Assembly: GCA_019187195.1 (NCBI GenBank)
Contig: JABAQT010000028.1
Location: 4,202 to 68,201, forward strand
DNA from: Bryobacteraceae bacterium
Lineage (GTDB): Bacteria > Acidobacteriota > Terriglobia > Bryobacterales > Bryobacteraceae
DNA length: 64,000 nt
Direction of reading: 5' to 3'
In this document: positions 34,867 to 37,736 of the stretch, piece after piece
How positions within the stretch are numbered: position 1 is the first letter of the stretch
Layout: each line of letters begins with the position of its first letter
The notes under the pieces: model-generated
Database searches by the model: none
Told to the model about the DNA's origin: nothing
What the model saw: only the letters and a program-made list of their open reading frames with translations
Program-made: the position numbers and the translations under genes

Positions 34867-35075
34867 TGGACTTGTTTGGCTGGCTTTGTTTTCGTAACCT
34901 TAATTACAGTTCACGCCCCCCTTCCCACCCACTTCCCCCTCTCGAATTAGAAATCAAAAATTCACATACATTAATCTGTCACGTTTGCGATATTCATGTC
35001 ACAATTCTGTACGGAACGTGGTTGCCGTCCAACGGGTGCAAACCCCATGGCAAACCCCGTCCAGGAGCGCCGGGA
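34867..35075 (+). promoter_or_regulatory. AT-rich upstream region of the small protein/metzincin pair
   Basis: Within a GC-rich genome this stretch is markedly AT-rich, especially ~34948-35010, and contains no gene I can support. It holds TTGGCT-17-CTTAAT (34876-34904) as a weak promoter. It also has a direct repeat TGTCAC at 34977-34982 and 34997-35002, exactly 20 bases apart, which is the layout of an operator on one helix face. A frame open from 34866 into the downstream gene has no protein-like content, so it is taken as non-coding. Confidence 0.4.
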
Positions 35076-35375
35076 ATGCCTGTCTTGAAAGTGGATCTGC
35101 AAGAAGGTTTTTCGGGTGAGACCGTTGTTTTGCTCCTCAACGGGAGCGAAGTCTACCGGGGCACTCCGAAGACGCGTACGCAAATCGGCTTTGCCGACAC
35201 CCGTTCTTTCGATCTTCCTTCTCCGCAAGCCACGCTCGAGGTTTCCACTCCCCGGTCCGGCGCTTCGAAATCGACGGTCCTGGATCTCTCCCGGGACCTC
35301 TATGCCGGCGTATCGCTCGCCCCGGATGGCAGCATCGTGATCCATCCCTCGAGCGAGCCCTTCGGGTACGTCTGA
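35076..35375 (+). CDS. Small beta-rich protein of unknown function, upstream partner of the metzincin
   Basis: This 99-residue protein starts at ATG 35076 behind AGGAG. It has no signal peptide, membrane segment or cysteine. The sequence alternates hydrophobic and polar residues (VLKVDLQEGFSG, TVVLLLNGSEVYRG, TQIGFADTRSFDL, LEVSTPRSG, VSLAPDGSIVIHP), as expected for a beta sandwich. I do not recognise the family. It lies 161 bases before a large metzincin-type protein on the same strand, and its stop codon is built into a perfect 11-bp inverted repeat. An inhibitor, chaperone or structural partner of the protease is possible, but this is inference from position only. Confidence 0.65.
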   Translation: MPVLKVDLQEGFSGETVVLLLNGSEVYRGTPKTRTQIGFADTRSFDLPSPQATLEVSTPRSGASKSTVLDLSRDLYAGVSLAPDGSIVIHPSSEPFGYV

Positions 35376-35410
35376 CGCGCGCGCTTTTCCAGCGGTTCGG
35401 CGCGCGTCAG
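35372..35410 (+). terminator. Perfect 11-bp hairpin over the stop codon of the small gene
   Basis: CTGACGCGCGC (35372-35382) pairs without mismatch with GCGCGCGTCAG (35400-35410) around a 17-base loop. The TGA stop at 35373-35375 is in the left arm. No U-tract follows, so it may be an attenuator, RNA-stability element or Rho-assisted stop rather than a classic intrinsic terminator. Further palindromes lie in the same gap at 35479-35490 and 35492-35510. Confidence 0.55.
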
Positions 35411-35536
35411 GTTGCTCGCGATCAGTCAACTTCATTCGGCTCTCCGGGGAAAGGTGTTTCTTCACTCTCCCGGGGGCCGCCGCGCGCGGCACGGCATCCC
35501 CGCCATGCCGCACGGTTCAGAAAAAGGAGAGTAATC

Positions 35537-37645
35537 GTGGCAAATTCCCATTCCAAACACGACGCCATTCAGGAAGCCGTCGCCAGAATGAAAGCCGAGG
35601 AGACCATCGAGGCTACCAGCCTTCCAACCCCAACCATCCCTCTGCCGCTGTTTCTGCCCAACAGCGGCCTCTATACCTACTCGCTGCTGCTCCCCCTGGA
35701 GCCTCTCCCCTCCATCCCAACGCCGATTCCCGTCCCTATCCCCGGCCCCGCGCCCGGGAACGGCCCCACGGGCGGCGTGGAAGCGACGGAAGCCGTTGCT
35801 CCTTCGCCTGCCTCGCTGCTGCTTCCCTACGAGGAGCTGCGGCTCGACGTCGATGGCAACTACCCGCAAATGAAAGCCAGCGGACAGATATCCGGCTTCC
35901 GGGTCACCCCGGCCTACTGGATTGCCGACGTCGTCAAGACCGCCTCCAACACCTACGAGGGAAACATCTGGTACAAGGACGGCAATCTCTCTCTCATCCC
36001 TCAAACCAACGTCAGAATCGAAGTCAAGCGGACCCTCTTCTCCCCTCAAAGCGCCAAAGTCACCTTTACCGGGGGAGGAGCCTCGATCAAAGTCCGCGCA
36101 TTCAAATATAAGTCCCGGTATTTCCACCCCGTCAACTTTGAATTCGACACCGCCGAAGGCGTCACGCCGGTGCTCTCCTACAACACCGGCTCCCATCCGA
36201 ACCGCCCGGCTTCGCTCCCCGCCGAAAACCTCAGCATTGCCACCGTCTACCGCCGCACCGGCTTCAATGTCACCATCTCCGGATCGGGCGGCACGGTCCC
36301 CATCGCCGAAGCAGGAGCCAACGCCAAGTGGAGCGACATGGAAATGCATGACGCCATGCAGATCCACTGGTCCAAGTTCACCAACGCCCCCCGGTGGGCG
36401 CTCTGGACCTTCTTTGCCTCGCTCCATGAAATGGGAACCAGCCTCGGCGGCATCATGTTCGATGACATCGGCCCCAACCACCGCCAGGGCACTTCGCTGT
36501 TCCTCGATTCCTTCATCAAGAACGCCCCGGCCGGCGACCCCGCTCCCTCCGCCTGGGTCAACCGCATGATCTTCTGGACCGCCTGCCACGAAATGGGCCA
36601 CTCCTTCAACCTCGCCCACTCCTGGCAGAAGAACCTCGGAGTCCAGTGGATTCCCCTCGCCAACGAACCCCTCGAACGCAGCTTCATGAACTACCCCTAC
36701 AACGTCCCCGGAGGCACTTCCGCCTTCTTCTCGGACTTCGAGTTCCGTTTCAGCAACACCGAACTCCTGTTCATGCGCCACGCCCCGTTCCGTTTCGTCG
36801 AACAGGGCAACGCCGACTGGTTCGACCATCACGCCTTCCAGCAGGCCAACGTCTCGCCCGAGCCGAAATTCTCGCTCTCGGTCGAGTGCGCGGGCAAAAC
36901 CCCCACGTTCGAATTCCTCGAACCCGTCGTCGTGCACCTCAGCCTCAGAAACATCACTCCCCACCCGCAACTGGTCGAGCAGCAACTGCTCGCCTCGCCC
37001 GAGCATATGACCATCGTCATCAAGAAGCGCGGCAAGCCCGCCCGCGAATTGATCACCTTCTCCCAGCGCTGCTGGCAGGAAAACTCCAATGTCCTCATGC
37101 CCGGCGAGGAAATGAAGGATTCCGTCTTCCTTGTCGGCCGCAACGGGTGGGATATCGCCGAGCCCGGCTACTACACCGTCCAGGCCTGCGTTCATCTGCC
37201 CAACGAGGACATCGTCTCCGAGCCCGTCGCCATTCGCATCGCTCCGCCCAAGGGCTACGAGGAGCAGCACATCGCCCAGGATCTCTTCTCCGATTCGGCG
37301 GGGCGCGTGCTCAACTTCGACGGCTCGCGGTTCCTTCAATCGGCAAACGACACCTTGCGCGAACTCGTCGAGCGCTTCCCCAACTCGAAAGCCGCGATTC
37401 ATGCCGCGGTCGCCCTCGCCGGCCCCTTCGCCTCCGACTACAAACAGGTGGCCGTCGACGGGGCCAGGCACACCCTCAAGGTCAGCAAAGCCGATCAGAA
37501 AGAGGCTCGCCAACTGCTTTCTCCCCTCATCGATGAGCCGCAGAAGGCCGCCGCTACCCTCGGCCAGATTGACTACGATTACTACCACAATCGCTTCAAA
37601 CCGCTGCTCGAGGAAATGAGAAAGGCGGCCAGGGCGGGACGCTAA
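35537..37645 (+). CDS. Large metzincin-type zinc metalloprotease without signal peptide
   Basis: This 702-residue protein starts at GTG 35537 behind a strong AAGGAGAG. The full metzincin zinc motif HExxHxxxxxH is present as HEMGHSFNLAH at residues 351-361, followed by a Met-turn candidate SFMNY about 35 residues later. The N-terminus is hydrophilic, then comes a proline-rich region (~30-77, many P-x-P). There is no Sec or Tat signal, so it is either cytoplasmic or exported by another route. A second H-E-M-G-T-S segment at 297 resembles the zinc motif but lacks its second His. Beta-rich (~460-570) and helical parts complete the C-terminus. I do not recognise a named family. Confidence 0.8.
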   Translation: MANSHSKHDAIQEAVARMKAEETIEATSLPTPTIPLPLFLPNSGLYTYSLLLPLEPLPSIPTPIPVPIPGPAPGNGPTGGVEATEAVAPSPASLLLPYEELRLDVDGNYPQMKASGQISGFRVTPAYWIADVVKTASNTYEGNIWYKDGNLSLIPQTNVRIEVKRTLFSPQSAKVTFTGGGASIKVRAFKYKSRYFHPVNFEFDTAEGVTPVLSYNTGSHPNRPASLPAENLSIATVYRRTGFNVTISGSGGTVPIAEAGANAKWSDMEMHDAMQIHWSKFTNAPRWALWTFFASLHEMGTSLGGIMFDDIGPNHRQGTSLFLDSFIKNAPAGDPAPSAWVNRMIFWTACHEMGHSFNLAHSWQKNLGVQWIPLANEPLERSFMNYPYNVPGGTSAFFSDFEFRFSNTELLFMRHAPFRFVEQGNADWFDHHAFQQANVSPEPKFSLSVECAGKTPTFEFLEPVVVHLSLRNITPHPQLVEQQLLASPEHMTIVIKKRGKPARELITFSQRCWQENSNVLMPGEEMKDSVFLVGRNGWDIAEPGYYTVQACVHLPNEDIVSEPVAIRIAPPKGYEEQHIAQDLFSDSAGRVLNFDGSRFLQSANDTLRELVERFPNSKAAIHAAVALAGPFASDYKQVAVDGARHTLKVSKADQKEARQLLSPLIDEPQKAAATLGQIDYDYYHNRFKPLLEEMRKAARAGR

Positions 37646-37666
37646 CCAGTCCGCGCAGTCTCCCGG

Positions 37667-37694
37667 CGGGATGGCGCCCCATGCCGCCATCCCG
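37667..37694 (+). terminator. Terminator-like hairpin after the metzincin gene
   Basis: CGGGATGGC (37667-37675) and GCCATCCCG (37686-37694) form a perfect 9-bp stem with a 10-base loop, 21 bases after the stop codon. It is followed by GTCATTTCT, only weakly U-rich. Confidence 0.6.
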
Positions 37695-37736
37695 TCATTT
37701 CTGCGGGTGATCGATACTTGCTACTAGAATGAGATC

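Follow-up and report, generated by a model that had tools for sequence, protein, structure and literature searches.

A predicted metzincin without an export signal and its small beta-rich partner, encoded side by side in at least nine phyla

Metzincins have been studied as secreted enzymes with their own prosegments. That they are nearly always secreted, as a preliminary description of the locus reported here had put it, is a fair generalisation but not a rule. The zymogens of pappalysins are kept latent by a cysteine switch (short prosegment, Cys-Gly; PMC6949598), and cytophagalysin carries an Ig-like domain after its catalytic domain (PMC11674741). In Tannerella forsythia, potempin genes lie directly before the genes of the KLIKK proteases (PMC7296668), and the KLIKK targets of potempins include metzincins (PMC7296668; PMC6949598). 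Staphostatins are beta-rich, cytosolic and co-transcribed with the protease, and the genes of related inhibitors are located upstream or downstream (PMC3462683).

Here, a signal-less metzincin (M) with intact catalytic residues is reported together with the gene of a small partner (S). The two occur side by side in at least nine phyla, and their carriers include Nitrospira, cyanobacteria and soil actinobacteria. In the window, which is the whole analysed stretch of 64,000 nucleotides from a Bryobacteraceae genome, the two are neighbouring genes on the + strand with 161 nt between S and M. Both reading frames are open as first described, and both starts are kept in a sister genome of the Bryobacterales (L009), whose M is 91 % and whose S is 88 % identical to the window proteins. 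The locus comprises the following features:

35076..35375, + strand: S, with ATG at 35076 and stop at 35373-35375, 99 aa; homologues adjoin M in 53/83 loci
35537..37645, + strand: M, with GTG at 35537 and stop at 37643-37645, 702 aa; signal-less metzincin-type zinc peptidase
34900..35019, no strand: AT-rich stretch upstream of S, GC 0.42 vs about 0.6 around it
35372..35410, no strand: perfect inverted repeat of 11 bp spanning the stop codon of S, with a 17-nt loop and without a T-run
37667..37694, no strand: 10-bp perfect inverted repeat 3' of M, 8-nt loop, no T-run

A Shine-Dalgarno-like GGAG precedes both starts, in keeping with the ribosome sites noted previously, and the AT-rich upstream region, also noted then, is probably regulatory. 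The hairpins attributed to the two genes exist as inverted repeats, but as both lack a trailing T-run, they do not qualify as clear intrinsic terminators. Directly 3' of the pair, the window and L009 differ by an insertion or deletion, the next gene being about 90 nt away in the window (37645-37728) and about 5.4 kb away in L009 (2982-8440).

The AlphaFold model of M (pLDDT 85) consists of a leader, an N-terminal beta-domain, a catalytic domain, an Ig-like domain and a helical tail:

35537..35827, + strand: leader, residues 1-97, with predicted helix 7-28, SGLY motif 43-46 and disordered Pro-rich loop 51-97
35828..36226, + strand: N-terminal all-beta domain, residues 98-230 (LRLDVDG ...), from the secondary structure of the model
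36227..36811, + strand: metzincin catalytic domain, residues 231-425, with HEMGHSFNLAH 351-361 and Met-turn SFMNY 382-386
36854..37246, + strand: Ig-like domain, residues 440-570, nearest solved folds 3isy and AsaP1 (2x3a)
37256..37642, + strand: C-terminal helical domain, residues 574-702, from the model

Conservation was assessed in an alignment of 62 divergent relatives with 28-91 % identity to the window M; the first M alignment had been built from plasmid relatives (Rhizobium, Nonomuraea, Embleya, Arthrobacter, Methylobacterium and the archaeon Halocatena). The HExxHxxxxxH motif at 351-361 and the SFMNY turn, both recognised in the preliminary description, are present, with H351, E352, G354, H355, N358, H361, S382, M384 and N385 invariant in 62/62 relatives. 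H271, D309, R316, R414 and H415 are likewise invariant, Y386 of the Met-turn is kept in 61/62, and Cys512 of the Ig-like domain in 52/62. The canonical Gly of HExxHxxGxxH/D is replaced by Asn in all 62, as in ulilysin, which is an accepted metzincin. In the model, the zinc motif lies where the predicted active-site helix 337-356 ends. Alignment of the catalytic domain to PAPP-A (Z 8.3, 175 residues, rmsd 4.0) and to fragilysin (Z 7.6, 163 residues, rmsd 4.2) gives moderate scores, consistent with the position at a zinc site that was expected of the motif.

Sequence and model together characterise M as a predicted metzincin. Its family, which appears close to the pappalysins, has no name in the libraries searched. 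The core signature HExGHxxNLxHxW ... FMNY aligns with ulilysin in a weak profile match (E 0.04), the window M misses the family cut-off of the M43 Pfam model, and the nearest Pfam family is Reprolysin_4, matched by 20/62 members with a best E of 1.9e-5. No conserved Cys was found before the zinc helix save at the variable position 350, and 16/62 members have no Cys there at all. The Foldseek list for the whole of M, which was topped by GH3 beta-glucosidases with a TM of about 0.13, was judged meaningless. In Pseudonocardia (L080) and Geodermatophilus (L081), a Peptidase M28 domain precedes the M region in the same ORF, with a Pfam match in L080, which indicates that a deep clade has the two peptidases joined in a single chain. 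Nitrospirota (L125, L126, L127) have short remote relatives of the Ig/helical part, split over two ORFs and some with lipoprotein-like N-termini. In Arthrobacter sp. StoSoilB13 (L006:3410-6035), M is broken into several frames by frameshifts or sequencing errors, with S intact.

No convincing signal peptide was found across the 62 aligned relatives, which extends the earlier observation on the window M to this set. The top 12-aa hydropathy within the first 50 residues is at most 1.55 in 95 % of them vs 2.5-3.1 for two lipoprotein signals, and a hydrophobic leader segment is absent in 61/62, the outlier (L083) having an uncertain start. Lipoprotein-like N-termini were seen in some remote relatives of M without S. 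The leader sequences have an acidic character and are in many cases rich in Pro (PIPIPxPxP); an SG(L/R)Y motif stands ahead of the conserved core. In a trend that was found post hoc, is not phylogeny-proof and could be set against only 3-4 new M loci, too few for an independent retest, the Pro-rich loop has a median of 42 aa with S vs 16.5 without S (p 6e-5), and a Pro count of 8 vs 1.5. Where S is absent, no part of M is missing more often than this loop, and the loss of S tends to go with its shortening. The trend fits 7 of about 10 S-less clades, with the exceptions L049, L074 and L085, and the M loop is short despite the presence of S in L001, L083, L087 and L094.

S was confidently modelled (pLDDT 88) and is predicted to be an 8-stranded beta-sandwich. 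The earlier view that it belongs to no known family held in Pfam, NCBIfam, PHROGs and PADLOC, none of which gave a match, and its sequence found none in the PDB. Conservation peaks at residues 8-16 and 30-40 (mean 2.8 bits vs 1.9 elsewhere), in the region of the conserved loops QEGF (residues 9-12) and TRxQIGxA (33-40), which would both lie on one end of the sandwich if the strands alternate. A conserved C-terminal tail (EPFGYV in the window) always ends at the stop. The nearest solved structures are transthyretin, the luminal domains of PepT2 and HGSNAT, and TssJ (Z 7.5-9.6). These fold searches gave no hint of a function for S: many sandwiches are tied, and the fold is common and without functional meaning. 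It occurs outside the pair as well, as an S-like domain in a Longitalea lipoprotein (L117:7330-7797, - strand) that is encoded beside ABC transporter genes without an adjacent M.

A search of bacterial and archaeal genomes for M gave 207 relatives, the best 80 of which were combined with two plasmids and the window into a set of 83 loci, where S homologues were found with an iterated S profile. S adjoins M in 53 of these loci, in four gene arrangements: before M in 38, after it in 13, and convergent and divergent in 1 each. It is absent in 30, and in 25 of these M is flanked by 2.4 kb of sequence or more on either side. Co-directional gaps are mostly below 260 nt; the distance is wider on the Arthrobacter plasmid, with an opposite-strand gene in between. 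According to record titles, the S-bearing loci span at least nine phyla (Acidobacteriota, Chloroflexota, Nitrospirota, Pseudomonadota, Cyanobacteriota, Bacteroidota, Actinomycetota, Planctomycetota and Krumholzibacteriota). Because the two genes remain neighbours through changes of order and strand, selection for a functional link is a likelier explanation than a frozen operon. What looked like a natural M-S fusion in Microbacterium (L043) proved to be an artefact, as S lies there in a different frame just 3' of M.

Counts over whole genomes show a one-sided co-occurrence: S depends on M, and M does not depend on S. Among 245 Nitrospirota genomes, full-length M and S occur in the same 7, always side by side. 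Among 297 Acidobacteriota genomes, S occurs in 3, all with an adjacent M, and full-length M in one further genome, whose contig ends close to M. In the genus of the window, 2 of the 11 other genomes contain S, namely the sister L009 and one with an adjacent M-S pair of a different clade. Independent occurrence, which the preliminary description had taken to speak against the unit, is seen on one side only: 25 genomes have M without a neighbouring S and without S anywhere, whereas a lone S was seen once, in Longitalea, and a normal pair is present in that genome too. All M found in Bacillota are without S. Distances of M and S correlate, with a Mantel r of 0.50 for 41 pairs and of 0.43 (p 0.008) for 28 non-redundant pairs. 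The distribution is patchy, with about 0.5-5 % of the genomes positive in each of the phyla sampled.

No conserved third gene was found near the pair, where just generic ABC transporters and regulators recur; together with the adjacency over at least nine phyla, this supports the earlier notion of a self-contained two-gene unit. No other small partner is conserved beside S-less M. Near the pair on the Rhizobium leguminosarum plasmid pRL9b4 (430109-431795; L128:6523-8209), an apparently signal-less S8 serine peptidase gene is followed by that of a 92-aa protein, and the cluster also holds a tyrosinase, a radical SAM protein and a ferritin-like protein with BNR repeats. As a candidate for a second S-like partner, here of the S8 peptidase, this 92-aa protein was rejected, being unrelated to S. 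No paper naming the M-S pair was found in the literature searched, which covers few subscription journals.

Of the explanations offered initially, the best class is still that of a protease with an inhibitor or chaperone of its own. Within it, the best reading is that S would regulate M in the cytosol, as an inhibitor or latency partner like staphostatins or potempins. With slightly less than even confidence, M is proposed to be an active, zinc-dependent metzincin and S a dedicated cytosolic partner that binds M and holds it in check. M would be made without a Sec or Tat signal and would therefore fold in the cytosol, where it may be catalytically active in a zinc-dependent manner. S would bind M, most likely via the QEGF and TRxQIGxA loops and the C-terminal tail, and would check it until release or use, as staphostatins do with staphopains and potempins with KLIKK proteases, rather than assist or process it. 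Because S depends on and travels with M, and M has no cysteine switch, restraint of M by S in the cytosol is the simplest reading. Several points stand against it. Many genomes, including all Bacillota found, have M without S, so S is not needed everywhere, and an inhibitor for self-protection should be hard to lose. Furthermore, the nearest folds of S are not inhibitors, and the targets of staphostatins and potempins are exported, whereas S and M are signal-less. A further-reaching form of the proposal is doubtful, namely a widespread cytosolic pappalysin-like family in which latency is provided in trans by S gripping the Pro-rich leader and the active-site cleft, replacing the cysteine-switch zymogen of the secreted enzymes.

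The absence of a convincing signal on any aligned M, along with the lipoprotein-like N-termini of some remote S-less relatives, could also point to S as a folding chaperone or export escort, which would bind the Pro-rich leader or loop of M for a non-Sec exit or to keep M unfolded. The longer and Pro-richer loop in the presence of S would suit such a role, but the post hoc nature of this trend, its fit to only about 7 of 10 S-less clades, the lack of any secretion gene recurring near M-S loci, and the occurrence of pairs in Gram-negative and Gram-positive phyla alike make it conceivable but fairly unlikely. A stable enzyme made up of M and S as its two subunits, with S selecting substrates or localising M and neither inhibiting nor exporting it, is compatible with their co-inheritance, with the adapter-like small sandwich and with the S-like domain in a lipoprotein, which suggests a general binding module; nothing specific favours it over inhibition, and it is considered improbable.

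If S were instead a substrate, trimmed by M at its C-terminal tail, for example, so that a peptide or the mature beta-sandwich is released or activated, the dependence of S on M and not the reverse would be explained, as would the conserved tail that always ends at the stop. This is quite improbable, since S stands beside M without an export signal, length variation or a cleavable spacer, is conserved over two loops rather than one site, and the many S-less M would need other substrates. The toxin-like pair envisaged initially, or a defence module, draws on the combination of a small and a large gene and on the patchy distribution. It did not hold up and is highly improbable: M is common without S (25 genomes), neither PADLOC nor PHROGs gave a match to a toxin, defence or phage family, and no phage record was found, only one fragment at a viral contig end, so that a phage origin was rejected as well.

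The M-S pair suggests a proteolytic system that is intracellular or exported in an unusual way and that is nameless in the libraries searched. If S is an inhibitor, as the favoured reading would have it, it would offer a compact scaffold of a new kind against metzincins, some of which are drug targets in humans.

Compared with the potempins and KLIKK proteases, the pair shares a small gene directly ahead of the protease gene; potempins are lipoproteins and KLIKK proteases are secreted, whereas S and M have no signals. With the staphostatins of staphopains and the inhibitors of Bacteroides C10 proteases, S shares the properties of a beta-rich cytosolic protein of about 100 aa encoded before or after the protease, but the targets there are cysteine proteases with export signals, in contrast to the signal-less metzincin M. 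The Ig-like domain of M (442-569) resembles the Bacillus subtilis inhibitor IPI/BsuPI (3isy; Z 9.6, rmsd 3.3, 112/117 residues), a likeness that may reflect the common Ig fold only, as AsaP1 and RbmA score within about 0.6 Z of IPI; this domain sits inside M, and none of 62 members matches the Pfam family of the inhibitor at an E of 0.01. From the pappalysins (MEROPS M43: ulilysin, mirolysin, PAPP-A), M differs in its weak sequence match (E 0.04 to ulilysin, falling short of the M43 Pfam model), its lack of a signal peptide and of a cysteine-switch prosegment, its N-terminal beta-domain with a Pro-rich loop, its helical C-terminus and its dedicated small partner. Nevertheless, its zinc signature HExGH..NL.H.W and FMNY Met-turn align with those of ulilysin, its catalytic domain aligns to that of PAPP-A, and, as in cytophagalysin, an Ig-like domain stands behind the catalytic domain.
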